NCBI GenBank assembly: GCA_900177435.1
Contig: FXAI01000001.1
Location: 257,982-321,981, forward strand
DNA: 64,000 nt
Direction of reading: 5' to 3'
Source of the DNA: Alteromonadaceae bacterium Bs31
GTDB lineage: Bacteria > Pseudomonadota > Gammaproteobacteria > Pseudomonadales > Cellvibrionaceae
Of this stretch, positions 29,432 to 49,088 are shown piece by piece (positions within the stretch are counted from its first letter, which is position 1; every line of letters starts with the position of its first letter). The notes below the pieces were generated by a model. The model was not told the DNA's origin and did not search any database. It worked only from the letters and a program-made list of their open reading frames with translations. Position numbers and translations under genes: made by a program.

Positions 29432-29983
29432 TCAGTCTATTTGCGAAAGGCTTGCTAGCGCCTGATTTAATACCGCTTCCATGGGCGCGTTGGTGTCTAA
29501 TTGAATGACGTCTTGCTCCTTATGAGGTAGCTCCAGTGCTTCAAACTGACTATCCAGCAGCGTGCTGGGCATAAAATGTCCTTCTCGGGTATTCATCCTT
29601 TTAGCAATAAGTTCTTTTGGCCCATGTAAAAAAAAGAACAATACATCAGCATTGTTTATTCTTAACAAGTTTCTGTGTTGCTGTCGCAGGCCAGAAAATG
29701 CCAGCACATGACTATTGCCCGCTGCTGCTTCGTTTTCCAGATGAGCGCGAATGGCTTTTACCCAGGGTAATCGCATCTCATCGCTTAAGGGCAAGCCGCT
29801 GGCCATGTGAGCTTTATTTCCCTCACTGTGAAAATCATCTGCGTCCAGGGTAACAATTCCAAGTGCGGCGCCAAGCTCGTTGGCAAGCGTGGTTTTACCG
29901 CTACCGGATACACCCATCACAATCAATACCCTGGGCTTGTTGGTGGTGCTGTCGAACTCAGTCTTTTGTTTATCTGCGCTCAT
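29432..29983 (-). CDS. gntK: Gluconokinase
   Basis: GntK phosphorylates D-gluconate to 6-phosphogluconate. The 183-residue protein has a Walker A P-loop VMGVSGSGKTT (about 22-32), then LDADDFHSEGNKAHMASGLPLSDEMRLPW, the signature of the shikimate-kinase-like gluconokinases. It is divergent from a LacI-family regulator, with a candidate operator in between. In this locus its substrate is probably gluconate released from cellobionate by the GH94 phosphorylase; that is inference from context. Confidence 0.93.
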   Translation of the reverse strand: MSADKQKTEFDSTTNKPRVLIVMGVSGSGKTTLANELGAALGIVTLDADDFHSEGNKAHMASGLPLSDEMRLPWVKAIRAHLENEAAAGNSHVLAFSGLRQQHRNLLRINNADVLFFFLHGPKELIAKRMNTREGHFMPSTLLDSQFEALELPHKEQDVIQLDTNAPMEAVLNQALASLSQID

Positions 29984-30038
29984 AAGAATAGGCTTATATA
30001 TTAAGCGGTGGGTACCAGAAACATTATCAAGATTTGGT

Positions 30039-30054
30039 ATGATAGCGCAATCAT
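30039..30054. promoter_or_regulatory. Candidate operator of the LacI/GntR-type regulator
   Basis: ATGATAGCGCAATCAT is a 16-bp near-perfect palindrome (one mismatched pair) with a central GCGC, the symmetry expected of LacI-family sites. It sits in the 193-base gap between divergent gntK and the regulator gene, 56 bases upstream of gntK. The palindrome is seen; binding is inferred. Confidence 0.5.
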
Positions 30055-30176
30055 GATGCCTGTGATAAGGTGCATCGCACGGATTGACACGTCATTTTGT
30101 TGTGAGTGTATAGGCATTTGGTGTGCTAATCCAAGTGGTAAATAAAAATAAAGAGCTGTAGATTTAGGTCGTTCCC

Positions 30177-31190
30177 ATGAGCCGAAGAGTTACCTTGTCC
30201 GATGTGGCAGAGTTGTCAGGTGTTAGCGCTATCACAGTGTCGCGCGTGTTGAACCAGCCAGAAAAAGTTTCTGAACCTGTACAAAATAAGGTGAACGCTG
30301 CCATAAGTAAGCTTGGCTACATACCCAATCGCTCTGCCAGCGCACTTGCTTCTGCGCGCTCTGGTGTAATAGGGGTGGTAATACCCTCCCTGTCAAACAA
30401 TGTTTTTAACGATGTACTGCGAGGCGTCTACGATGTAACCGGGCCTGCAGGCTATCAAGTATTACTGGTGGATACCCACTACTCGCCTATCGAAGAAGAG
30501 CGAATGATTCGCACCCTGCTGGGGCAAGCACCGGAAGCCATGATAATTACCGGTGGTAACCAGACAGAGCATGCGCGTAAGCTGCTGGAAAAAGCCGAAA
30601 TTCCCATTGTGCAAATCATGGATAAACTGGATGAGCCCGTTGATATGAACGTAGGTTTCAGCCACCGCAAAGCTGCTTTCGAGGTGGTTGAGCGCATACT
30701 TGCAGCGGGCTATACCAAGCTGGGCTTCCTGGGCGCCCGCATGGATCCACGCGCGCAGCAGCGCTTGCAGGGTTATCGCCTTGCCATGGAACAGGCGGGC
30801 TTGCTTAATGATGACCTTGTTCTTACCACGCCCAGGCCCTCATCAATTGCCATGGGCTGCGAGCTTTTTAAGGGGCTGGTAGCCCAATCTGGTGGTCTGT
30901 GCGATGCAGTATTTTGTGTTAATGATGATTTGGCGCTCGGCACCTTGTTTGAGTGCCAGCGCATGAATATTTCTATACCGAAAGATTTGGCTATCTGTGG
31001 CTTTAATGATATAGAGGCATCAGCTTTGGTTAATCCACCCCTTTCAAGCGTGCGCGTTCCGCGCCATGAAATGGGAGTGGTGGCAACAGAAATGGTGATT
31101 AAAGCCATTAAAGGCGAAGTGATAAGTGAACGTGTTGTAGACTGTGGTTATCAAATAAAAATGAGAGAATCGACTCGCGCCGTAGCTTAG
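30177..31190 (+). CDS. LacI-family transcriptional regulator, GntR-like
   Basis: The 337-residue protein has an N-terminal helix-turn-helix (VTLSDVAELSGVSAITVSRVLNQPEKVSEP, about 5-34), the hinge (SASALASARSGVIGVVIPS) and a periplasmic-binding-protein-like effector domain ending in CGYQIKMRESTR. It most resembles the LacI-family gluconate repressor GntR, and its position beside gluconokinase agrees. It probably represses gntK and the downstream transporter and phosphorylase genes in the absence of gluconate or a related aldonate. The transporter gene starts 51 bases after its stop. Confidence 0.85.
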   Translation: MSRRVTLSDVAELSGVSAITVSRVLNQPEKVSEPVQNKVNAAISKLGYIPNRSASALASARSGVIGVVIPSLSNNVFNDVLRGVYDVTGPAGYQVLLVDTHYSPIEEERMIRTLLGQAPEAMIITGGNQTEHARKLLEKAEIPIVQIMDKLDEPVDMNVGFSHRKAAFEVVERILAAGYTKLGFLGARMDPRAQQRLQGYRLAMEQAGLLNDDLVLTTPRPSSIAMGCELFKGLVAQSGGLCDAVFCVNDDLALGTLFECQRMNISIPKDLAICGFNDIEASALVNPPLSSVRVPRHEMGVVATEMVIKAIKGEVISERVVDCGYQIKMRESTRAVA

Positions 31191-31241
31191 GCAAAATACA
31201 ATACAACAATAATAAATGTAATGGGTTTTGTGGGGGAATCT

Positions 31242-32876
31242 ATGTCAACATCAAATAATGCTGCAAACGAGCGGACGGCAAAAATCAGCCTGGCTGAAAA
31301 GCTGGGCTATGGTTTGGGTGATGCCGGGTTTAATTTTTACTGGATCATTATCGGTTCTTACCTGCTGTATTTTTACACCGATATATTTGGCCTTGCGCCC
31401 GCAGCAGCGGCTGTGATGTTTCTGGTCACCAAAATAATAGATGCCTTTACCGACCCTTTAATGGGAGCAATAGCCGACAGAACCAATAGTCGCTGGGGGA
31501 AATTCCGCCCCTACTTATTGTTTGGCGCCTTGCCTATGGCCGCTGCCGCAACACTCACCATGAGTACGCCGGACCTGAGTGATTCCGGAAAACTCATCTG
31601 GGCCTACGCCACTTACAGCATGATGATGCTGTGCTACACAATACTCAGTACGCCATACTCCTCTCTTTCCGGTGTGCTTACCGCAAACACACAAGAGCGT
31701 AACTCCATATTCGGCATACGTTTTTTCTTTGCTTATTGCACTGGCATTATTGTAGGTGCCGCAACGCCGACCCTCGCGGAGTTATTTGGCCAGGGTGACG
31801 AGGCCGCAGGATGGCGTAGCACCATGCTGTTGTATAGCTCGGTAGCAACGGTGCTATTCTGGATAAGCTTCTTATCAACTAAAGAGCGTATTCAGCCTGC
31901 CAAAGAGCAACAAAGTAATCCGCTAACGGACATTGTAGACCTGATAAACAATCGGCCGTGGATAATACTGTTTATATTGGCCATGATCATCATGGTAACC
32001 CTTACCTTACGTGGTAGCTCCTCGGCCTATTACTTCAAATACTTTGTCGAGCGGCCAGATTTAATTGGCAACTATATCGGGCTGCAAATGGCCGCCTATG
32101 CCATTGGTGCTGTATGCACACCACTGTTAACCGCACGCATGGAAAAAGCAAAGTTGCTTATTTTACTCATGACTATCGTGGGTAGTTTATCCATCCTGTT
32201 CGCCTTTGTTCCCAAGCCAGATTCAAACGGGGTGCGCACCATAAGTACAAACGAGGTAACTGTGCTAAATGCGCAGAGCCTATTGGGGCAAGAGCCTGTT
32301 CCCGGGGCTAGCTATCATTGGGCTTCTCACGAAACTATATTCTGGATAATTAAAAAGCGCGTGCCCCTTGACGAAAGTACCAACGTTTTAACACTACAAA
32401 ATGCAAAAGGTAAAGTGGTTAGTGTAAAAATGCACTACAGCGAAAACGGAAAAAGCGCAGAGCTGGATAGCGCAGATATGCCGATAGAAATTATCATAAT
32501 GTTTATTCTGAACATTCTCATCAGTTTGGCGCTCGGGCCAAAATCGCCACTCACCTGGTCGATGTATGCTGATGCAGCTGACTATAATGAATGGGAAACC
32601 GGCCGCAGGGCCACAGCCATGACCTTTTCTGCCGCAACGTTTTCCCAGAAAATTGGTGGCGCTGTAGGTTCTGCTGCAATTGGCGGCGTATTGGCGTCTA
32701 TTGGTTATGCCGCTAACCAGGCGCAGTCGGACGCGTCACAGCTGGGTATAGTGTTATTGCAGACCGCCGTACCCGGGGTGTTTGCCTTTGTTGCGGTAAT
32801 TGCACTTATGTTTTATAACCTAAGTGGCGAGAAGCTGGAGCAAATCCAGCAAGACCTCAAAGATCGTCAAACCTAA
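31242..32876 (+). CDS. GPH-family sugar:cation symporter, candidate cellobionate importer
   Basis: The ATG at 31242 follows GGGGGAA and gives 544 residues with twelve membrane segments of the glycoside-pentoside-hexuronide (MelB-like) type: KLGYGLGDAGFNFYW, DPLMGAIADRTNSRWGKFRPYLL, MYADAADYNEWETGRRATAM. An extra soluble stretch of about 90 residues (about 322-412, KPDSNGVRT to DSADMPI) interrupts the C-terminal half. It lies between the regulator and the GH94 gene, so it probably imports the phosphorylase substrate. Similar transporters also carry other glycosides, so the substrate is inference. Confidence 0.82.
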   Translation: MSTSNNAANERTAKISLAEKLGYGLGDAGFNFYWIIIGSYLLYFYTDIFGLAPAAAAVMFLVTKIIDAFTDPLMGAIADRTNSRWGKFRPYLLFGALPMAAAATLTMSTPDLSDSGKLIWAYATYSMMMLCYTILSTPYSSLSGVLTANTQERNSIFGIRFFFAYCTGIIVGAATPTLAELFGQGDEAAGWRSTMLLYSSVATVLFWISFLSTKERIQPAKEQQSNPLTDIVDLINNRPWIILFILAMIIMVTLTLRGSSSAYYFKYFVERPDLIGNYIGLQMAAYAIGAVCTPLLTARMEKAKLLILLMTIVGSLSILFAFVPKPDSNGVRTISTNEVTVLNAQSLLGQEPVPGASYHWASHETIFWIIKKRVPLDESTNVLTLQNAKGKVVSVKMHYSENGKSAELDSADMPIEIIIMFILNILISLALGPKSPLTWSMYADAADYNEWETGRRATAMTFSAATFSQKIGGAVGSAAIGGVLASIGYAANQAQSDASQLGIVLLQTAVPGVFAFVAVIALMFYNLSGEKLEQIQQDLKDRQT

Positions 32877-32889
32877 AAAACCTCTATAG

Positions 32890-32920
32890 GCTCCCGTAGT
32901 TACGCTGCGGGAGCTTTATC
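32890..32920 (+). terminator. Hairpin between transporter and GH94 gene
   Basis: GCTCCCGTAG (32890-32899) pairs with CTGCGGGAGC (32905-32914), 10 bp with one G-U pair, then TTTATCTTTA. It could terminate or partly attenuate transcription into the GH94 gene. Confidence 0.7.
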
Positions 32921-32949
32921 TTTAAAGTAAGAACTCCCGGAATGTGATC

Positions 32950-35346
32950 ATGATAAAAATCTCAGAAGACGGTGAACGTTGTTCTTTGCATAGCCCTACT
33001 GTCATGCCCAATGCCAGTGGTTTTTTATGGAACAAAAAAATGATGATCCAAGTAAGCTGCCGCGGCTATGCCATTGCCCAGCATATGCAGCCGGAGCCTT
33101 CCAAGTATACTTATCAACCCATAGTGGAAGGTAAAATATTCATGCTGCCGGAGCAGCCATTCTTTGCCAATTCGCCGGGCCGATTCTTTTTTATTAAAGA
33201 TGAAGAGACCGGCGAGTTTTTCTCCGCCCCTTACGAGCCCACAAAAGTTAAACCAGAAAAATTCGAGTTTTCTGTGGGTAAGAGTGATTTGCGCTGGAAA
33301 GTCGAACACCTGGGGATTGAGGTACAGGCGACTTTGAGTATTCCTAAAAATGAAGTGGCTGAACTTTGGCAGGTAAGTGTCAAAAATACCTCCGGCCGAT
33401 CGAGACGCATAAGCTTTTACCCCTACATACCTTTTGGCTTTATGAGCTGGATGAACCAGTCTGCCTCTTACAAGGAAGACCTGGGAGCAATGGTGGGTAA
33501 GTGTGTAACGCCCTACCAGAAACTTGACGATTACTATAAAAACAAAGATTTAAAAGATCTCACTTTTTTTATTCACGAACGCAGTCCAGACGCCTTCGAG
33601 GCTTGCCGTGATGTATTTGAAGGGGAGGGCGGCGTGCAGCATCCCAGCGGCATACAAAATGAAAGCCTGGCCAATGGCGACGCACTCTATGAAACCCCCT
33701 GCGCGGTTTTTCAGTATCGTTTGGCGCTGGAGGACACTCAGCAGGAAGAGTACCGCTTCTTGCTTGGGCCAGCATTTGATGAAAAAGAAATTCTGGCTAT
33801 ACGTAAAAAATACTTTTCTGATGAGGCCTTTAAAAGTACCCAAGCTGAATACGCCTCCTATGTCGCAGAGGGAAAGGGGGTACTGAGTATAGAAACGCCT
33901 GACAAACACTTCGACAACTTTGTAAACCAATGGTTGGCTCGTCAGGTTTTTTATCATGGAGATGTTAACCGCCTCACCACCGACCCGCAGACACGCAATT
34001 TTTTGCAAGACAGTATGGGTATGGCTTACATCAAACCTGAAGTTACCAAGCAAGCCTTTCTATGGGCGCTGGCTCAGCAGGAAGAAAACGGTGCAATGCC
34101 AGACGGTATTTTGTTAAACAAAGAAGCAGAGTTGAAATACATTAACCAAATACCTCATACAGACCACAGTGTTTGGTTACCTGTTTGTTTAAGTGCTTAT
34201 TTAAATGAAACAAACGACTATCAGCTTCTTGAGCAGCCGTTGGCTCACTGGAAAAATAAAAATGATGTAAAGACGGTGGGCGAACGCATATCCAATGCTA
34301 TGCGCTGGTTGCTTAAAGACAGAGATGCGCGCGGTTTAAATTACATTGCCCAGGGAGACTGGAACGACCCCATGAATATGGTGGGCCACAAAGGGAAGGG
34401 GGTGTCAGGATGGTTATCCATAGCCACGGTTTATGCTTTAAAAATTTGGGCCGAGGTGTGTGAGCAGATTGGAGATGCAGCTTCTGCTACCGAGTTTCGC
34501 AGTGGCGCTGCGGCTATGGATGCGACTATAAACGAGCATATTTGGGATGGCGACTGGTACGGCCGTGGCATAACAGATGAGGGCGTTTTATTTGGTTCAC
34601 ATAAAGACAAAGAAGGGCGCATATTTCTCAATCCGCAAAGCTGGGCCTTAATGGCGGGTATAAGTGAAGAACAGCAAAAACAAAAAATATTACACGCTAT
34701 AGATGCGCAGTTAGATACGCCCTACGGCGTAATGATGCTGGCACCGGCTTATACCGCCATGCGTGAAGACGTTGGCAGGCTAACGCAGAAACACCCGGGC
34801 GCTGCGGAAAACGGATCTATATACAGCCATGCTGCAGCCTTTTACGCTTGGGGCTTGTGCTGCGTCGGTGAGGCAGACAGAGCTTTTGATGTTATCCGTA
34901 AAATGATCGCAGGGCCCATCGATGAAGATTACGCCCAGCGAGGGCAAATGCCTGTGTACATCCCCAATTATTATCGCGGAGCTTATTATCAGTTTCCGCG
35001 CACCGCCGGACGCTCAAGTCAGCTGTTTAATACGGGTACGGTATCCTGGGTGTATCGGTCACTGGTGGAGGGAGTATTTGGGCTAAAGGGCTGCGCAGAG
35101 GGCTTGCAGATATCACCTTTACTGCCTTCGTCATGGAATAGCGCTCGGGTTCAAAGAGCGTTTAGGGGAGCGATGTTTGATGTGAGTTACGAGCGCTGTG
35201 AAGACGTGACAAGCATGGAAGTTTGGGTGAATGAGGTATTGCAGAGCGATGCAATTATACATGACGTGAATGCAGGGGAGCGCTATTCGGTCTTCGTCCG
35301 GTTGCCGCTGCCTAGCGGTGGCGTAACAAAATCAAGTCAGGCCTGA
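32950..35346 (+). CDS. GH94 disaccharide phosphorylase, probably cellobionic acid phosphorylase
   Basis: A cytoplasmic 798-residue enzyme (no signal peptide), from the ATG at 32950; a GTG at 32944 is possible. It has the GH94 layout: beta-sandwich (about 1-270), linker helix and an alpha/alpha-barrel with GDWNDPMNMVG, whose Asp (about 473) is the family's catalytic acid, and a C-terminal DVSYERCEDVTSMEVWV jelly roll. GH94 members cut cellobiose, chitobiose, cellodextrin or cellobionate with phosphate. Neighbouring gluconokinase and GntR-like regulator favour cellobionate (giving glucose-1-phosphate and gluconate), as in Saccharophagus and Xanthomonas enzymes. The family is certain; the substrate is inferred. 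Confidence 0.85.
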   Translation: MIKISEDGERCSLHSPTVMPNASGFLWNKKMMIQVSCRGYAIAQHMQPEPSKYTYQPIVEGKIFMLPEQPFFANSPGRFFFIKDEETGEFFSAPYEPTKVKPEKFEFSVGKSDLRWKVEHLGIEVQATLSIPKNEVAELWQVSVKNTSGRSRRISFYPYIPFGFMSWMNQSASYKEDLGAMVGKCVTPYQKLDDYYKNKDLKDLTFFIHERSPDAFEACRDVFEGEGGVQHPSGIQNESLANGDALYETPCAVFQYRLALEDTQQEEYRFLLGPAFDEKEILAIRKKYFSDEAFKSTQAEYASYVAEGKGVLSIETPDKHFDNFVNQWLARQVFYHGDVNRLTTDPQTRNFLQDSMGMAYIKPEVTKQAFLWALAQQEENGAMPDGILLNKEAELKYINQIPHTDHSVWLPVCLSAYLNETNDYQLLEQPLAHWKNKNDVKTVGERISNAMRWLLKDRDARGLNYIAQGDWNDPMNMVGHKGKGVSGWLSIATVYALKIWAEVCEQIGDAASATEFRSGAAAMDATINEHIWDGDWYGRGITDEGVLFGSHKDKEGRIFLNPQSWALMAGISEEQQKQKILHAIDAQLDTPYGVMMLAPAYTAMREDVGRLTQKHPGAAENGSIYSHAAAFYAWGLCCVGEADRAFDVIRKMIAGPIDEDYAQRGQMPVYIPNYYRGAYYQFPRTAGRSSQLFNTGTVSWVYRSLVEGVFGLKGCAEGLQISPLLPSSWNSARVQRAFRGAMFDVSYERCEDVTSMEVWVNEVLQSDAIIHDVNAGERYSVFVRLPLPSGGVTKSSQA

Positions 35347-36057: not shown

Positions 36058-38256
36058 TTAAATAGTATCAATGCTGTTTAGGTAATTTTCCAGCATGGTA
36101 TAACCCACTGAGTCTTTGTTGTTACGGTCACTGGCATTGTTGGGGTTCAGGCCATTTGCACGTTCCCAACTATCTGGCATACCGTCGCGATCGCTATCCG
36201 TTGGAGCTGGTGCGCTGTTCAACTGTGGCAAGTTAGTATCCGAAGGACAGCTAATAAAACCATCTCGACCCAAAGTGGAACTACCGTTACGCACGTCAGA
36301 AATAATACGCTTATCAATGTCGTCACGGCTTATGCTTGCGCCCACGTCAGCCAGTACAGCCTGGTATGCATCTTGGGCTGACTGTTGATTAATGGCCATG
36401 GCATTCCATGGTGAGTTCATCTTAACGTAATCACTGCCAGAAACGCCTTTCCAGTTGTCACTGTTAACAGAGGAGTTGCCTTCGATAATGTTTCCGGAAA
36501 CATGGAAGTTACCGATATCACCGGCACTGCGTTTTTGTGGCTTAACAATTACACCTTTAACGGCACTCTCTGTTCCTGGGCCAGGCTTGTAGTAGTTATT
36601 AACCATGTTTATCCAGAAACCGATAAAGTTGGCATTACCGACCTGCTCGCGCTCGCCGCCGTAGGAGCTTCCGTAACCCCAGTTGTAAATAACGTTATTG
36701 CGGTAGTCATTATGACCGCCACCGGATGCCCAGCGTGGGTTACGGTTTTCGTTATGCGCAATCAGGTTGTGGTGGTAGGTACTGTAATCATTACCCCAGA
36801 TGGCACCAAAGCGGTGACTGTCTGTTCCTTCGTTCGGGCAGGCTTCAGATACCAGCGACCACTGAATAGTTACGTTTTCGCCATGGTAAATGGACATTAC
36901 TTCGTCACGACTCCAGCTGGCAGAAACGTGGTCGATCATTACGTTGTTCTGGTAGCGCTTACCGAAAGCATCTTGATCGCCATTGCCATCGAAACGCACG
37001 CGGATATAACGCACGATAACGTTACTGCCATGAGTCATTTGACCGAAGATGGTAATGCCATCACCAGGCGCGGTTTGACCGGCAATAGTGGTGTTATTAG
37101 GCACATTAAAACGGCCTTTAATGGTTCCTGATACAGCGAAAACAACTGTACGGTTACCTTTGGACAGAGCATCACCGAGGCTTCCTGAACCTGAGGATTT
37201 CAGGTTGGTAACTATGTATACGTCACCACCACGTCCACCGGTGGTATTTTTTCCGTAACCTTCTGCTCCCGGGAAAGCAACCAAAGGTCCGCTTGCGCCA
37301 GAAGAGGAGGACGAAGATGAGGACGACGAAGAGGAAGATGAGCTGCTAGTGCTAGAAGTAGTACTGGAGCTACTTGAACTGCTGCTAGAGCTGCTACTTG
37401 AGCTTGTTGAACTTCCGCCCTGACAGTCTCCGGCACTGGGGCTTTCACCAATCGCTTTCAAGTAATCAATATTGGATAAGCCTGATGCGTTAGTAGCTTC
37501 CAAGCGAAGCTTATTGGTTCCGCCTTTCAGGGCAATGTTCGTTTGAACAATTGACCAGGTGGTCCAGGAGCCTGTTCCGAGGAAATCAACATTATCAGCC
37601 GTGGTGCCATTCACACGAAGATCGGCAGTGCGGTTCGCAGAGGAACCATTAGCGTAACGCCATTCCAAGATGTAATTGCCGTCGTAAGGAACGTTTACGC
37701 TCCATTCAACACCGTTGTTGATGGCATTGTCTGTATTGGCAAAGCCGCTACCGGTAAATCCTGCGTTGTTATTATCAACTGAGCCATCGACAAGACAGAA
37801 AGCTTGTGTACCTTCCTGGATTATTAATTCACTTGTGTCAGTTGAACCTGAGCTGGAGCTGCTGCTCGAACTGCTGGAAGATGAACTAGAGCTGCTCGAA
37901 CTACTTGAAGACGAGCTTGAACTGCTAGAGGACGAGCTTGAGCTTGAACTACTAGAGGACGAGCTTGAGCTTGAAGAGCTTGATGAGGAACTGGTTGTAG
38001 TGCCGCCGCAATCTCCGAGCAGTGTCCAGGAGTAGTCACTTCCCGGAACAGAATTGGTGTACCAGTTTGCCGTGTACAGGCTGTTTTGATATTGCATGCT
38101 GTCACCAGCATTCGCGTGGTTGTAGTCACCGCCCGCCCAGTCTTTTGCTGTCCAGTTGGGGTATTCATTCACACCCGCGCAGTCTAGGGCGCTTGCAGCT
38201 GGCGGTAATGCCAGTAAGGCTGCAACACCAATGGATATTAGTTTTCTTGAGAACAT
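36058..38256 (-). CDS. Modular pectate lyase (CBM5/12-like, CBM35-like, PL1-type lyase)
   Basis: The 732-residue secreted enzyme has a signal peptide (1-23, PPAASA), a CBM5/12-like module (about 25-85), a Ser linker, a CBM6/35-like beta-sandwich (about 140-280), a second Ser linker and a pectate lyase domain (about 330-690: FPGAEGYGKNTTGGRGGDVY, IAGQTAPGDGITIFG, VMIDHVSASWSRDEVMS). It ends with a DSDRDGMPDSWE calcium-binding-type segment (about 693). It should cleave polygalacturonate while bound to the cell wall. AGGAG lies before the ATG. Its catalytic domain is almost the same as in the next gene upstream, so the two arose by duplication. Confidence 0.88.
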   Translation of the reverse strand: MFSRKLISIGVAALLALPPAASALDCAGVNEYPNWTAKDWAGGDYNHANAGDSMQYQNSLYTANWYTNSVPGSDYSWTLLGDCGGTTTSSSSSSSSSSSSSSSSSSSSSSSSSSSSSSSSSSSSSSSSSSSSSSSSGSTDTSELIIQEGTQAFCLVDGSVDNNNAGFTGSGFANTDNAINNGVEWSVNVPYDGNYILEWRYANGSSANRTADLRVNGTTADNVDFLGTGSWTTWSIVQTNIALKGGTNKLRLEATNASGLSNIDYLKAIGESPSAGDCQGGSSTSSSSSSSSSSSSSSTTSSTSSSSSSSSSSSSSSSSGASGPLVAFPGAEGYGKNTTGGRGGDVYIVTNLKSSGSGSLGDALSKGNRTVVFAVSGTIKGRFNVPNNTTIAGQTAPGDGITIFGQMTHGSNVIVRYIRVRFDGNGDQDAFGKRYQNNVMIDHVSASWSRDEVMSIYHGENVTIQWSLVSEACPNEGTDSHRFGAIWGNDYSTYHHNLIAHNENRNPRWASGGGHNDYRNNVIYNWGYGSSYGGEREQVGNANFIGFWINMVNNYYKPGPGTESAVKGVIVKPQKRSAGDIGNFHVSGNIIEGNSSVNSDNWKGVSGSDYVKMNSPWNAMAINQQSAQDAYQAVLADVGASISRDDIDKRIISDVRNGSSTLGRDGFISCPSDTNLPQLNSAPAPTDSDRDGMPDSWERANGLNPNNASDRNNKDSVGYTMLENYLNSIDTI

Positions 38257-38635: not shown

Positions 38636-40888
38636 TTAAAGGCTATCTATGCTGTTCAGGTAGTTTTCCAGCATGGTGTAACCTACTGCGTCTTTGTCAT
38701 TTCGGTCACTGGAATTGTTGGGGTCGAGGCCATTCGCAAGCTCCCAGCTGTCGGGCATGCCATCGTGATCGCTATCAGCAGGTGCTTCAGTACCATTTAG
38801 CTGAGGCAGAACGGTATCTCCAGGGCATGACAAGAAACCATTATTTCCTATAGTGGCCGTTCCGTCCCGGACTTCAGCAACGATGCGTTCGTCAATAGCA
38901 TCACGTTTTGGGACAGAAGCGCCCACATCAGCAAGTACCGCTTGATAAGCAGCGTCAGCGTCCTGTTGATTAATAGGCATTGCATCCCATGCTGCGTCCA
39001 GTTTTATGTATTCATTGCCTTTAACACCCTTCCAGTTATCGCTCGTGACAGAATCACTGCCGATAACAATATTGTCAGCAACGTAGAAACTACCTTTGTC
39101 ATCAGCGCTACGGGAACCTGGTTCCACAAGGGTATCGTCATCACTTGTACCTGGGCCCGGTTTGTAATAGTTGGCAATCATATTTACCCAGGTGCCGGTA
39201 AAATTGGCATTACCCACTTGTTGGTGCTCTCCGCCATAGGAGCTTCGGTAGCCCCAGTTATAGAGGACATTATTGCGGTAGTCATTATGACCTCCACCGG
39301 AAGCCCAGCGGGGGTTGCGGCTTTCGTTGTGCGCAATCAGGTTGTGGTGATAGGTGCTGTAGTCATTTCCCCAGATGGCAGCAAAGCGGTGACTGTCTGT
39401 TCCCTCATTCGGGCAGGCCTCAGAGATTAAAGACCACTGAATAGTCACGTTTTCACCATGGTAAATGGACATTACTTCATCTCGGCTCCAGCTAGCGGAA
39501 ACGTGGTCGATCATTACGTTGTTCTGGTAGCGCTTACCGAACGCATCTTCATCACCTTTACCATCGAAGCGCACGCGGATATAACGAATAATGACGTTGC
39601 TGCCATGGGTCAATTGACCAAAAATGGTAATGCCATCACCCGGCGCGGTTTGGCCGGCTATAGTGGTGTTGTTTGGTACATTGAAGCGACCCGTAATAGT
39701 TCCGGACACACGGAAAACAATCGTGCGGCCACCTTTGGACAAGGCATCTCCCAGGCTGCCAGCCCCTTTTGCGTTCAGGGTGGTGACTTCGTAAACGTCG
39801 CCACCACGCCCTCCCGTGGTATTTTTTCCGTAGCCTTCTGCGCCAGGGAAAGCCAATAACTCGCCCGCTCCAGAGGAGGAGCTTGTGCTGCTGGAACTAG
39901 TGCTGGAGGAGCTGCTTGAACTGCTAGAGCTTGAAGAACTGCTGGTGCTACTTGAGCTGCTAGAGCTAGTGCTGGAAGAGCTGCTGGTACTGCCTGAATT
40001 GCTGGAACTCGTTGTGGAAGAGCTGCTGCTACTTGAACTGCTGGAGCTGCTAGAACTGGAACTGCTTGATGAGCTACTGACATCATTACAGTTTCCACCT
40101 AGAACAGAGTCGCCCTCAATGCTCAGGTAGTCTATGTTCGCCAAGCCTTCGTCGCTAGCTGCGGAGATTTCCAGTATGTTGTTGCCCTGCACCAGATCTA
40201 CATCGAGGGATACTTCCTGCCAGTTATCCCAAGCGCCGGTTGCTGGCATCACCAAGGTGTATTCCCCACCACTACCACCGTTTATCGACAAGTTGCCGTT
40301 CCTCGCAGCTGCACCGCCGTTTGCCATTCTTAGGGTGAGACGGTACATCGCACTGCTAGAAGCCTCTACAGCCCAGATTATGCGTTTGCCAATGGCATTG
40401 TCTGTGTTTGCATAACCAGCACCGGTATAGCCTGCTCTAATAGATTCGCTGGCGACGCCATCAACAAGGCATAAACCTGCCTGGTTCTCTTGAATAACAA
40501 AACCTGAACCACTTGAAGAACTGCTTGAAGAACTGCTTGAAGAACTGCTTGAAGAACTGCTTGAAGAACTGCTTGAAGAACTACTTGAAGAACTACTTGA
40601 AGGGTTATCACCAGGTGACATGCCGCCAGTGCTGGAAGTGGATGAACTGTTTGAACTAGACGTGGACGAGCTGCTTGAACTGGAAGTGGACGAGCTGCTT
40701 GAACTGGAAGTGGACGAGCTGCTTGAACTGGAAGTGGACGAGCTGCTTGAACTGGAGGAAGACGAACTACTTGTAGACGAGCTATCTGAGGTGGGCAGGC
40801 CAATACCGTCAATGTCATCAATACCGCCACACGCCGTAATCATTGTAGCAATAAGAATCGTCTTTATTGTGAGAGTGGACCTAGACAT
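38636..40888 (-). CDS. Pectate lyase lipoprotein with CBM35-like module
   Basis: The ATG at 40888 gives 750 residues and a lipobox (MITAC, Cys20), predicting outer-membrane anchoring. A longer Ser/Thr linker, a CBM6/35-like module (about 130-265), a further linker and a pectate lyase domain (about 350-720) follow, ending in the DSDHDGMPDSWE segment. The catalytic domain is closely identical to that encoded at 36058-38256 (ENVTIQWSLISEACPNEGTDS). The N-terminus lacks the CBM5-type module of its paralogue, so one enzyme is freely secreted and the other cell-bound. AAGAG precedes the ATG. Confidence 0.88.
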   Translation of the reverse strand: MSRSTLTIKTILIATMITACGGIDDIDGIGLPTSDSSSTSSSSSSSSSSSSTSSSSSSSTSSSSSSSTSSSSSSSTSSSNSSSTSSTGGMSPGDNPSSSSSSSSSSSSSSSSSSSSSSSSSSSSSSGSGFVIQENQAGLCLVDGVASESIRAGYTGAGYANTDNAIGKRIIWAVEASSSAMYRLTLRMANGGAAARNGNLSINGGSGGEYTLVMPATGAWDNWQEVSLDVDLVQGNNILEISAASDEGLANIDYLSIEGDSVLGGNCNDVSSSSSSSSSSSSSSSSSSSSSTTSSSNSGSTSSSSSTSSSSSSSTSSSSSSSSSSSSSSTSSSSTSSSSGAGELLAFPGAEGYGKNTTGGRGGDVYEVTTLNAKGAGSLGDALSKGGRTIVFRVSGTITGRFNVPNNTTIAGQTAPGDGITIFGQLTHGSNVIIRYIRVRFDGKGDEDAFGKRYQNNVMIDHVSASWSRDEVMSIYHGENVTIQWSLISEACPNEGTDSHRFAAIWGNDYSTYHHNLIAHNESRNPRWASGGGHNDYRNNVLYNWGYRSSYGGEHQQVGNANFTGTWVNMIANYYKPGPGTSDDDTLVEPGSRSADDKGSFYVADNIVIGSDSVTSDNWKGVKGNEYIKLDAAWDAMPINQQDADAAYQAVLADVGASVPKRDAIDERIVAEVRDGTATIGNNGFLSCPGDTVLPQLNGTEAPADSDHDGMPDSWELANGLDPNNSSDRNDKDAVGYTMLENYLNSIDSL

Positions 40889-41924
40889 AATAACTCTTAT
40901 AAGCTTACTTCCTTCAATGCTCATCTCAAGCCTCCAAGATTTTGATAATCCGAGTTAATTAAAAAAATAGCCGCTTACAGCGTGTTTTAGCGGGCGTTCC
41001 ATCGCCTTCTGCTTCCAGAATAATATGTGCCTGTTTTCCAAGTTTTTTCGGAACGGTAAAGCTCACCCTCGTTTGGGAACTAGAATTCGAAATAGATATC
41101 TATGTATGCGCAGTGTCCGTCTGGTGGTACTGCTAACGAGTTAAGAGAAGTTAATGTCAGGACCAGAAGTAGTATCTTTTATTTGCGATATGCGACTTAC
41201 ACCAAGGTTTAAGGACGCAACATGCAAAAAATACAGGGCTATATGCACACGTTTAAAATCGAACTAAAACAGGTCTATGTCACCCCTAAAAAATTCAGGT
41301 AGCACAATATATGAATTTTTGTAAGTTTATTGGTCCTATTTTTTTATTTTATAACTACGTCCTAGTGCGGTAGGAAATATCTGACTTACGCACAGACATA
41401 TTGTTACCAGGGTCACACTATTTTTCGCTGAATTATCTCGATAATTAGCCCCAAACAGCCATTCTGGAATTGGCGAGCGTTTGTGATCCTTGCCGCTGAT
41501 GGTGGTGCAGGTCCAGGTGAGGCTAGTTGTCAATCTTAAGGTGCTTAAGTCTTCTTACTATTTGGAATAATTAAAGCCCTGATTAATGCCAGTTGGGGAA
41601 GCTTTTAATGAGTTCGCGCTGTATTTGCAGCAAACTTGGAAAGCTTGCCTTGGCGGATTATTGAGGACGATGCTTTGGCGGGCGGCGCTCGTTTCAGTAG
41701 AGAATTGTTTTTTCAGATATACAAGTATTTTTGAGGGGATGGATGCGGTATCGACAGAGAAGCTCTAAATAGGGGGTTACTCCTAAGGGCGAATTAATTA
41801 TCGTCCGCAGAATACGAACAAGGCGCTACGTGATAAAGTAGTTTTTGCTGAATAGGGGAGGGCAAACCTCCAAATCTGGCCAACACGGAATCGGAAAATA
41901 CATTCTACGAGGTACTGGAAACAC
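40889..41924. other. Intergenic region with a gene remnant
   Basis: About 1 kb. The decayed DUF1593/Sde182-like fragment at 40959-41099 is listed separately. The remainder (41100-41924) shows no frame on either strand that I can support. Confidence 0.6.
40959..41099 (-). pseudogene. C-terminal remnant of a DUF1593 (Sde182-like) gene
   Basis: On the reverse strand a 46-codon open stretch ends in TAA at 40959-40961. It reads SFTVPKKLGKQAHIILEAEG, then GDGTPAKTRCKRLFF. This matches the end of Sde182-type, DUF1593 cellulose-binding proteins, which typically read FTVP..., HIILEVTD, G-TP, LTRYRR. An in-frame stop lies directly upstream, and no start or nucleoside-hydrolase-like domain is present. 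I infer a decayed gene left beside the pectate lyases. Confidence 0.45.
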
Positions 41925-45923: not shown

Positions 45924-48900
45924 ATGTATAAAAAGTTTGTACTGAGTTGCGCTACAGTTATGGCGCTTTCGGGCTTTGCGGCAGCTACCAATGCCGCGAG
46001 CACAATCAGCATTTATGACACCGCTCCGGGTTGGGCGAGTATGAATGGCGGCACGACTGGTGGCGGCACCGATTTAAGCAAAGCCGTTACAGTAACCAGT
46101 ATGAGTGCCCTTAAAAGTGCCGTGAGCGGTTCCAGTAAAAAAATCGTATTGGTTGAACCTGGCAACTATGACGGCACCTTGTCTCCAGGCGCCAACACTA
46201 CCATTATTGGTACTGCACCCGGTGTCAGAATCTCCGGTAATATCAGTGTTAGCGGCAGTGACAAGAAAAATATCATTGTGCGTAACATCGCCGTTCGCGG
46301 AAAGCCCTGCGGCAGCAATGACGCCTGTAAAAGTGGCTCCGATGGTGTCTACATTGGCAACGGCGCGACTAATATCTGGTTTGACCACGTAGATGTTTCC
46401 GATGGCCAGGATGGTAACTTCGACGTAACTCGTTCAGGTGATTTTGTAACCTGCTCCTGGTGTAAGTTTTACTATACCTACGATAAAGACCATCGCCTCT
46501 CCAACCTCATTGCCGGTAGTGACAATGAAACGGAAAGCCGTGGCAAATTAAACATTACCTACATGAACAGCATGTGGGGAGATCGCGTTAATTCCCGTCA
46601 GCCTCGCGGACGCTTTGGCAAAATTCACATGTTAAACAACTACCACAAGAACTCGGGTTCTTTGCACGGTGTTGGTAAGGAAATGGCTTTAATTGCCGAG
46701 AATTCCTACTACGATGTACCCGGCAAAGATGTGTTCTTTAGCATGGGCAGCCCAAAAGGCTGGAAAGGTAGTGGTAACAAAGGTAGCGCTAAAAATCTGA
46801 ATGCGACCAGCGGCAGCACATTCACTATTCCTTATAGCTATAGCAAAATGTCTGCGGATGAAGCCAAGGCGGCAGTTCTCTCCTCCGACTGTGGCGCGGG
46901 GAATACCTGCCTGTTTGATCACGACGGTACAGGCTCTTCCAGTTCAAGCTCTAGCTCCTCAAGCTCTTCCAGCTCTAGCTCGTCTTCAAGCAGCTCATCC
47001 AGCTCCTCGTCTTCTAGCAGCAGTTCTTCCAGCTCCAGCGGTTCAACGGGTGGCAGTTGCAGTGGTGTAAATGAATACCCCAATTGGACTTCAAAAGACT
47101 GGTCTGGCGGTGACTATACTCACGCTAAAGCCGGTGATGAAATGGCTTATCAGGGCAAGCTGTACCGTGCCAACTGGTACACCACAACTGTTCCTGGCAG
47201 CGACTCTTCCTGGACCTTGCTAGGAAATTGCGGCTCGAGCAGCTCCTCCAGTTCAAGCTCTTCAAGCAGTTCATCAAGCAGCTCCTCGAGCTCCAGTTCT
47301 ACCAGTTCAACAAGCAGCTCTAGCAGCTCTTCAAGTTCTTCAAGCTCAAGTAGTTCTTCAAGCTCAAGTAGCTCTTCCAGCAGCTCTTCCAGCAGCTCCT
47401 CCAGTGGATCTACTGGCGGAAACTGCAGCGGTATTAATGTGTATCCGGATTGGACCGCAAAAGATTGGGCCGGCGGTGAATACAACCACGCTGAAGGCGG
47501 AGACCAAATGGTTTACCAGAGCAGTCTTTACCAAGCCAACTGGTACACTAATTCCGTTCCTGGCAGCGATGCTTCCTGGACACTGGAAGGAAGTTGTGGC
47601 GGCTCCACCAGCTCGTCCAGTTCTAGCAGTTCTTCCTCGAGCTCCAGCAGTTCTTCAAGTTCAAGCAGCAGCTCCAGCTCTTCGGGTTCAACCACATCTT
47701 CCAGCGGTGGTACCTTTAGCGTGAATGAGAATGGTCAAATCACTAAAAATGGTGAAGTGTTCCCTGTTCAGTGCGGCAGCTGGTTCGGTTTAGAAGGCCG
47801 TCATGAGCCTTCCAACGATCCAAGCAACCCCAGCGGAGCGCCTATGGAGCTCTATATTGGCAACACCTTCTGGTCAAATGACCACAGCCGAACCATGCAG
47901 CAAACCATGGATGAAATTACCCAGCGCGGTATTAATGTCATTCGTTTCCCCGTTGTGCCTCAAACCCTCGATCCAAACGATCCCCAGGGTAAAGGCTCTG
48001 TGCTGAAAAATTACGAGCCTATGCGTCAGCAAAATGCTCGTCAGGCGATGGAAGACTTCATTGTTATGGCCGACCAGAATGGCTTGGAAGTGATGCTGGA
48101 TATTCACTCCTGTTCCAACTACGTTGGTTGGCGTGCAGGCCGTTTCGATGCGCGTCCACCCTATGCGGACAACGATCGCGACAGCTATGATTTCAAACGT
48201 GAAAACTGGTCTTGTGCCGCTTCTGGCAACCCCAGCAGCGTTACTAACGTACAGGCTTACGACAAGCAAAAGTGGTTAAACGACTTGCGTGAACTGGCAG
48301 GCCTTTCTGCTCAGTTGGGTGTAGATAACATTATTGGTATCGACATTTTCAACGAGCCTTTCGACTACACCTGGGACGAGTGGAAAACTCACGTAGAAGA
48401 CGCCTACGAGGCCATTAGCGAAGTTAACCCCGACCTGTTGCTTTTCGTCCAGGGTATATCTGCAAATGCTAACGCTCAGGATGGAACGCCGGATTCCAAA
48501 GATCCGGTAGCCCACGGTGATGAGTTCTCTAACCCGAACTGGGGTGAGAACCTGTATCCCGCGCGCAATGCAATGCCGAATATTCCCAAGTCTAAATTAG
48601 TTTGGTCGCCACACACTTACGGCCCATCGGTATTTGTACAGCGCATGTTCATGGACCCTGCACAACCAGAATGTGAAGGTCTGGAAGGTGATGCAGCGGG
48701 CGATGCGAAATGTAACATCGTCATCAACCCAGATCTTCTTCGCTCAGGCTGGGAAGAGCACTTTGGTTACCTGCGTGACATGGGCTATGCGGTTGTTGTT
48801 GGTGAGTTTGGTGGACACCTGGATTGGCCAGAAGCTTCCAGTGTTCGAGATATGGCTCGCTGGAGCCACATCACCGATAACGTGGACGAGCAATGGCAGC

Positions 48901-49088
48901 AAGCGTTTGTAGGCTATATGGACGAGAAAAACATCGAAGCGTGTTACTGGTCCATTAACCCGGAGTCTGGTGATACGGGCGGCCTCTACAACAGTTCTTA
49001 CCACCCAGTGAATAACACTACCGACTGGGGTGTATGGACAACGCCAAATGAAACCAAGTGGGATATGCTGTTCCGCCTTTGGGATTAA
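45924..49088 (+). CDS. PL1 pectate lyase - CBM5 - CBM5 - GH5 endoglucanase fusion
   Basis: A 1054-residue secreted protein. A signal peptide (about 1-24, AATNAA) precedes a PL1 pectate lyase domain (about 26-330, IWFDHVDVSDGQDGNFDVTRSGDFVTCSWC, DKDHRLSNLIAGSD, NSRQPRGRFGKIHMLNNY). Ser linkers separate two CBM5/12-like modules (about 376-434 and 499-556, WTAKDWAGGEYNHAEGGDQMVYQ). A GH5 domain follows (about 595-1054) with acid/base E811 in FNEPF and nucleophile E961 in VVGEFGGH. It should cut both pectin and beta-glucan (cellulose or similar) on one polypeptide. The start at 45924 follows GAGAGG. A strong terminator ends it. Confidence 0.92.
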   Translation: MYKKFVLSCATVMALSGFAAATNAASTISIYDTAPGWASMNGGTTGGGTDLSKAVTVTSMSALKSAVSGSSKKIVLVEPGNYDGTLSPGANTTIIGTAPGVRISGNISVSGSDKKNIIVRNIAVRGKPCGSNDACKSGSDGVYIGNGATNIWFDHVDVSDGQDGNFDVTRSGDFVTCSWCKFYYTYDKDHRLSNLIAGSDNETESRGKLNITYMNSMWGDRVNSRQPRGRFGKIHMLNNYHKNSGSLHGVGKEMALIAENSYYDVPGKDVFFSMGSPKGWKGSGNKGSAKNLNATSGSTFTIPYSYSKMSADEAKAAVLSSDCGAGNTCLFDHDGTGSSSSSSSSSSSSSSSSSSSSSSSSSSSSSSSSSSSGSTGGSCSGVNEYPNWTSKDWSGGDYTHAKAGDEMAYQGKLYRANWYTTTVPGSDSSWTLLGNCGSSSSSSSSSSSSSSSSSSSSSSTSSTSSSSSSSSSSSSSSSSSSSSSSSSSSSSSSSGSTGGNCSGINVYPDWTAKDWAGGEYNHAEGGDQMVYQSSLYQANWYTNSVPGSDASWTLEGSCGGSTSSSSSSSSSSSSSSSSSSSSSSSSSGSTTSSSGGTFSVNENGQITKNGEVFPVQCGSWFGLEGRHEPSNDPSNPSGAPMELYIGNTFWSNDHSRTMQQTMDEITQRGINVIRFPVVPQTLDPNDPQGKGSVLKNYEPMRQQNARQAMEDFIVMADQNGLEVMLDIHSCSNYVGWRAGRFDARPPYADNDRDSYDFKRENWSCAASGNPSSVTNVQAYDKQKWLNDLRELAGLSAQLGVDNIIGIDIFNEPFDYTWDEWKTHVEDAYEAISEVNPDLLLFVQGISANANAQDGTPDSKDPVAHGDEFSNPNWGENLYPARNAMPNIPKSKLVWSPHTYGPSVFVQRMFMDPAQPECEGLEGDAAGDAKCNIVINPDLLRSGWEEHFGYLRDMGYAVVVGEFGGHLDWPEASSVRDMARWSHITDNVDEQWQQAFVGYMDEKNIEACYWSINPESGDTGGLYNSSYHPVNNTTDWGVWTTPNETKWDMLFRLWD

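Follow-up and report, generated by a model that had tools for sequence, protein, structure and literature searches.

Gene Organization of the Locus

The DNA considered here is a window of 64,000 nucleotides from Alteromonadaceae bacterium Bs31. The locus under study within it (29432-35346) carries genes for a gluconokinase (gntK), a LacI-family regulator of the GntR type (gntR), a symporter of the GPH family and a phosphorylase of the GH94 family, and very probably represents a catabolic unit for cellobionate. An earlier note on this DNA had named these four genes together with a palindrome in the gap between the divergent gntK and gntR. All four genes are in place, with products that exceed the cut-offs of their families, and the palindrome is present in a gap of 193 bp (Table 1). 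As to the individual assignments, the gluconokinase, which is of the GntK/IdnK type, falls below the cut-offs of two narrower equivalog models, NF007336 and NF008583. The GH94 protein matches Pfam PF17167 with 219.8 bits against a cut-off of 27, and found no match when the window proteins were scanned with NCBIfam. The open reading frame (ORF) of the symporter opens at 31221 and that of the GH94 protein at the GTG at 32944; relatives and a GGGGGAA motif 3 bases 5′ of the ATG suggest that the starts in Table 1 (31242 and the ATG at 32950) are to be preferred. A terminator-like hairpin lies between the two genes, and the corresponding spacer varies from 5 to 312 bp in nine relatives.

Table 1. 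Features of the locus, with positions in the window.
Feature	Position	Strand	Support
gntK, gluconokinase, predicted to act on the gluconate half	29432..29983	-	TIGR01313, 157.8 bits (cut-off 113.75)
Probable GntR operator ATGATAGCGCAATCAT in the divergent gap	30039..30054		Conserved upstream of gntK, gntR or GPH in relatives; Pseudomonas-like core
gntR-type LacI-family regulator	30177..31190	+	NF052440 (NCBIfam GntR of Pseudomonas type), 407.4 bits (narrowly above the cut-off of 400)
GPH-family symporter, probable cellobionate importer	31242..32876	+	TIGR00792, 376.6 bits (cut-off 231.35); MelB-like model
Beta domain of about 92 residues inserted in the importer, TM9/TM10	32205..32489	+	Alignments, models, family genomes
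Terminator-like hairpin in the importer/phosphorylase gap	32888..32916	+	13-pair stem; fold z-score -2.81, reached by 2 of 200 shuffles
GH94 phosphorylase, predicted cellobionic acid phosphorylase	32950..35346	+	4ZLE, 1170 bits; tree; Q190, R610, K614

Identity of the Phosphorylase

The closest solved structure to the GH94 protein is SdCBAP of Saccharophagus degradans (PDB 4ZLE; 1170 bits, 61% identity), followed by 1V7V, a chitobiose phosphorylase, with 205 bits. 4ZLE appears as cellobionic acid phosphorylase (CBAP) Sde_0906 in a table of PMC8950772. A tree of 33 rows was built with the window protein, SdCBAP, 20 of 80 named and six of seven unnamed CBAP rows. The window protein and SdCBAP fall within one branch of 28 rows with support of 100/100, in a tree whose bootstrap had not settled, whose resolution within the branch is poor and whose chitobiose-type row is long. 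Five rows stand outside this branch, including SdCBP and both GH94 paralogues from the genome of Bs31 itself.

The residues at the active site agree with this placement. Q190, R609 and K613 of SdCBAP, which are reportedly its carboxylate binders, align with Q190, R610 and K614 of the window protein. This trio is kept in all 88 CBAP-like rows (the window, the 80 named and the seven unnamed; 87 distinct sequences). At the same positions three cellobiose-type proteins have H, E and Y and a chitobiose-type one has H, R and F, so that at least two of the three are missing in each of these four. From its sequence, the GH94 protein is predicted to phosphorolyze cellobionate to glucose 1-phosphate and gluconate.

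That the protein is instead a cellobiose or chitobiose phosphorylase is extremely improbable. The same Pfam domains are found in these enzymes; however, it is only 24-25% identical to SdCBP and to the cellobiose phosphorylase of its own genome, it belongs to a different branch, and the key residues differ. Moreover, the genome has separate enzymes of both kinds, since the two further GH94 genes encode a cellobiose phosphorylase (1344 bits to 3QDE) and a protein nearest to diacetylchitobiose phosphorylase (764 bits to 8BOU). On structure scores, tree, key residues and separate paralogues this identity was rejected. Clustering with cellobiose or chitobiose phosphorylases, on which the earlier note would have abandoned its proposal, was looked for in the structure scores, the key residues and the tree, and the protein sides with SdCBAP in all of them. 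The chitobiose-type paralogue (L020:8264-10657; C40:706497) has a very long branch, and a second GPH gene is located about 2.6 kb away from it, with trypsin-like and FHA genes between the two.

Conservation of the Gene Neighborhood

The neighborhood of the phosphorylase was compared in 80 named loci, the best 80 of at least 501; the resulting counts are not independent because many close relatives (Duganella, Massilia, Paenibacillus) are among them. A relative of the GPH symporter (at least 40% identity) is present in 57 loci, and in 56 of these its gene is immediately upstream of the phosphorylase gene on the same strand. The LacI-type regulator has a relative in 44 loci at 40% identity or more (14 at 58% or more), and the gluconokinase in 38 at 35% or more. 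All three partners occur together in 31.

In the genus of Bs31, the phosphorylase is present in all eight sampled genomes, own included, and gntR adjoins it in seven, G353 being the one without gntR. Its wider distribution is patchy: 48 of 100 genomes of the family, 8 of 293 of the order and 5 of 369 of the class have it (E of 1e-100 or better, own genome counted each time). The genome that encodes SdCBAP itself (G318, identified by an exact 23-residue match) has the order valine-pyruvate transaminase, gntK, gntR, CBAP, GPH. The five genes around SdCBAP in S. degradans are thus those of the window, in which the GPH-CBAP pair has the opposite orientation. The linkage of gluconokinase, GPH symporter and GntR-type regulator with the enzyme, which the earlier note had proposed for this locus, is thus repeated in relatives, including around SdCBAP.

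Other arrangements were also seen. In two genomes of another family in the same order (L018:3002-11068, L019:6299-13164), genes for a cellobiose-type GH94, GPH, CBAP and GntK form one same-strand run, joining cellobiose and cellobionate use. In G184 (L017:7868-12945), genes for a solute-binding protein and an ABC permease follow the phosphorylase gene, and no GPH gene was found in this 15.9-kb contig; this is a different solution for import. Two congeners (L014, L134) have genes for a glycosyltransferase and a DUF2298 protein downstream of CBAP, L014 also an ALG10-like gene. At this place the window has two genes for poly-serine-linked proteins (36058-38256 and 38636-40924) with CBM6-like matches, one also with a CBM_5_12_2 match; their C-terminal parts are similar and, by eye, pectate-lyase-like.

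The Probable Operator and Its Regulator

Within the window, the palindrome does not stand out: ATGATWGCGCWATCAT with up to three mismatches has two matches, a number reached in 22 of 100 shuffles, where 0.90 are expected, and is thus not above chance. The weight of the operator comes from its conservation in relatives, not from these statistics. The 80 named loci were searched for the window sequence ATGATNNCGNNATCAT, allowing one mismatch and taking as inside the 250 bp or less upstream of GntK, LacI or GPH genes. It was found at 35 sites inside (32,187 bp) and at five elsewhere (1,664,108 bp). Five control palindromes gave no site inside and 0 to 3 outside. One of the five outside sites is about 150 bp upstream of a CBAP ORF in Marinimicrobium (L034).

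In all five Gilvimarinus loci in which GPH-CBAP is separated from gntR-gntK (L046, L048, L049, L051, L057), a second copy is present upstream of GPH, and therefore the phosphorylase operon is tied to the regulator. S. degradans likewise has one site between gntK and gntR and another before GPH. The core of the operator is AGCGCA in the window and AGCGCT in several relatives, and it resembles the GntR operators of two Pseudomonas species, given as AG-N2-AGCGCT-N-TCT and AC-N-AAG-N-TAGCGCT in the passages of PMC12195362 and PMC5902321 cited here. According to the same passages, GntR of Pseudomonas aeruginosa is released by gluconate and 6-phosphogluconate. By analogy, the regulator of the window is a probable repressor released by one of these compounds, and the idea of control that senses the product, also put forward in the earlier note, gains from the conserved operator and its likeness to gluconate-responsive ones. 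On the minus strand the operator overlaps a -10-like TATCAT; a scan of promoters gave seven matches against 8.8 expected, which is chance level.

In the 5.0-Mb genome, ATGATNNCGNNATCAT occurs at two places. The only other strict palindrome (C40:95920; L131:7921-7936) is upstream of a gene for a 328-aa protein, followed by a response-regulator-like gene (by eye). A wider regulon was considered and rejected, as this single further site is near genes without an evident link. Inside the coding region of gntR, an operator-like sequence, GTGTTAGCGCTATCAC, covers 30220-30235 over the helix-turn-helix motif (GVSAIT). Codon choice there is skewed toward the motif, yet among 15 distinct orthologues nine have lost the central CG; GTGTTAGCGCTATCAC could be an auxiliary operator.

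The Probable Importer and Its Inserted Domain

The model of the GPH symporter (mean pLDDT 84.3) best matches structures of MelB (E 2.4e-16; top matches 9OLI and 7L16). A domain is inserted between transmembrane helices TM9 and TM10, with seven strands when modeled alone and six in the whole protein. The N-terminus of MelB is cytoplasmic; from this and the helix count the inserted loop, and with it the beta domain, is probably periplasmic. The insert is spanned by 25 of 71 GPH-like ORFs in the fetched loci and by 15 of 57 in the named ones, and it is carried by Vibrio loci (L024-L026) as well. The importer alignment consisted of the window protein and 25 of the 71 ORFs, 21 with and four without the insert.

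Whole genomes were searched with a profile of the inserted domain, made from 21 phosphorylase-linked GPH proteins and that of the window. Among 100 genomes of the family, the domain occurs in 35, once each, and all 35 have the phosphorylase; 13 of the 48 phosphorylase genomes are without the domain. In 33 of the 35 genomes with the domain, its end lies 411-1052 bases upstream of the phosphorylase match, with both on one strand; in the other two the matches are on different contigs. In 369 genomes of the class, apart from its own genome there is one weak partial match (G530, 22.5 bits), which is taken as chance. Three of three sequences of the domain tried had no match in Pfam, the best sequence match in PDB had an E of 0.76, and no fold in PDB matched at E 0.001 or better (domain model with pLDDT 78.7 and pTM 0.67).

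Another reading is that the GPH symporter imports gluconate (or cellobiose) and that cellobionate enters by another route; the regulator and the kinase by themselves would form a gluconate operon of the Pseudomonas style. This reading is unlikely, in view of the GPH gene immediately upstream of CBAP in 56 of the 80 loci and the restriction of the inserted domain to CBAP genomes (35 of 35); besides, the family name covers glycosides, pentosides and hexuronides. Cellobionate is the probable substrate, and from its linkage the inserted domain may serve cellobionate uptake. A more specific idea is that the domain is a new, dedicated module for recognition or gating of aldobionates, a part resembling a binding protein but built into a secondary transporter, controlled by a GntR switch that has changed from the use of gluconate to that of cellobionate. 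We put this forward only tentatively, as possible but doubtful.

Probable Source of the Substrate and Fate of the Products

The genome has one gene for an LPMO (lytic polysaccharide monooxygenase) of family AA10, which is on another contig than the locus and includes a carbohydrate-binding module (CBM). Its catalytic domain matches TtAA10A (6RW7) with 353.6 bits. In the parts of PMC6767633 cited here, product peaks of TtAA10A on Avicel are assigned to C1 aldonic acids, and a passage of PMC12055684 has a homologue of it secreted by T. turnerae on cellulose. Among the 100 family genomes, 41 have both AA10 and CBAP, 7 CBAP only, 21 AA10 only and 31 neither (Fisher p 4e-6 by genome; all AA10 pooled, chitin-active enzymes included). 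Of the secreted glucanases that the earlier note had supposed in the window, one protein with GH5 and CBM was found (45924-49088).

As for the products, gnd is present in the genome and unlinked to the locus. No Edd passes the cut-off in the genome, the only match of the edd model being one of 254.9 bits (cut-off 708.25) in a 626-aa ORF. The Entner-Doudoroff route was rejected, as this ORF is taken, by eye, for IlvD; the same model has matches in 14 of 14 control genomes and exceeds the cut-off in two. With gnd present and no Edd over the cut-off, 6-phosphogluconate most likely enters the pentose phosphate pathway. The proposal that all steps from import to central metabolism are encoded here needs some correction: genes for import, phosphorolysis and phosphorylation of gluconate are at the locus, and the step from 6-phosphogluconate is not, with gnd elsewhere. 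Its wording also leaves out the passage through the outer membrane and the conversion of glucose 1-phosphate.

A Proposed Route for Cellobionate

For enzyme activity, its location in the cytoplasm, transport substrate, effector and origin of the substrate, we infer the following. Cellulose would be oxidized outside the cell, with the TtAA10A-like LPMO as the likely source of oxidized ends, and cellulases would release cellobionate. This acid may cross the inner membrane through the GPH symporter, which has the extra beta domain, and a cytoplasmic GH94 enzyme would convert it with phosphate to glucose 1-phosphate and gluconate. GntK would then form 6-phosphogluconate, to be passed to the pentose phosphate pathway through the unlinked gnd. 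GntR, bound at the operator of the divergent gap, is predicted to repress both gntK and gntR-GPH-CBAP until released by gluconate or 6-phosphogluconate.

The gene identities, the kinship to SdCBAP, the conserved synteny and the conserved operator are computed results, and the kinship, the linked partner genes and the operator support the reading as a locus for cellobionate use. Several observations are against it. The operator was found upstream of only 28 of 44 LacI, 15 of 38 GntK and 6 of 58 GPH genes (related loci counted separately, and one GPH match of 24%, L088, included). G353, of the same genus, has gntK-GPH-CBAP with neither regulator nor operator, and in the window the hairpin separates GPH from CBAP. 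Nineteen of the 80 named loci have none of the three partners; one of these (L027) is cut by a contig end, as are some further named loci, and the other 18 are from Bacillota, where the enzyme therefore also works in other settings. Some product peaks of TtAA10A are assigned to C4 oxidation in the cited parts of PMC6767633. By genus majority, the co-occurrence of AA10 and CBAP is not significant (p 0.076), and 7 of the 48 CBAP genomes are without AA10.

The absence of AA10 from these seven genomes would suit another explanation, namely that the natural substrate is some other acidic beta-glucoside, e.g., glucosyl-glucuronate from hemicellulose or exopolysaccharide, and that cellobionate is a side activity. 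Indeed, SdCBAP reportedly accepts glucuronic acid besides gluconate. However, the linked gluconokinase and a GntR-type regulator whose operator is GntR-like are consistent with gluconate as the product, and we consider this explanation very unlikely compared with a locus dedicated to cellobionate.

Oxidation of cellulose by LPMOs is well studied, and the use of the released acids by bacteria is less so. The locus would represent a regulated and testable cellobionate route in kin of shipworm symbionts, and it offers a sensor made of GntR and its operator as well as a candidate importer for cellobionate. Such a sensor and such an importer would be of use in the conversion of biomass, in which carbon can be lost as aldonic acids.

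Comparison with Known Systems

The enzyme family, its reaction and a fungal pathway are already published, the last in the parts of PMC4537572 cited here. To these, the present analysis adds a conserved set of bacterial genes together with its operator, and a domain of the importer that is linked to the phosphorylase. No bacterial GPH-GntK-GntR-CBAP cluster was noticed in titles and the starts of abstracts of the open-access literature, in searches that were directed neither at the inserted domain nor at the operator in such a locus; Nihira 2013 and Nam 2015 may describe the neighborhood.

Among single components, the melibiose symporter MelB, also of the GPH family, shares its fold with the importer, but the two are 22% identical, and judging by the lengths MelB, which has about 90 residues fewer, offers no space for the inserted domain. 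Among pathways, that of Neurospora crassa (CBT-1, CAP and gluconokinase) follows the same logic of import, phosphorolysis and phosphorylation of gluconate. It differs in its MFS transporter CBT-1, an additional extracellular beta-glucosidase and scattered NCU numbers, and the cited parts of the source mention no GntR-like switch (PMC4537572). In Escherichia coli, a strain without ascB is reported to lose the ability to grow on cellobionate. The gntR-gntK-gntP system of Pseudomonas is similar in its LacI-type GntR, divergent from the gluconokinase, and in its operator with an AGCGCT core. Its transporter, GntP, is a gluconate permease, and the cited passages (PMC12195362, PMC5902321) make no mention of a phosphorylase, whereas the gene set of the window would handle a disaccharide acid. 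The nearest counterpart is the SdCBAP locus of S. degradans, which has the same neighbors, i.e., valine-pyruvate transaminase, gntK, gntR and a GPH gene with the inserted domain. There, GPH-CBAP is transcribed toward gntR behind an operator site of its own, whereas in the window gntR-GPH-CBAP is on one strand behind one strict operator.

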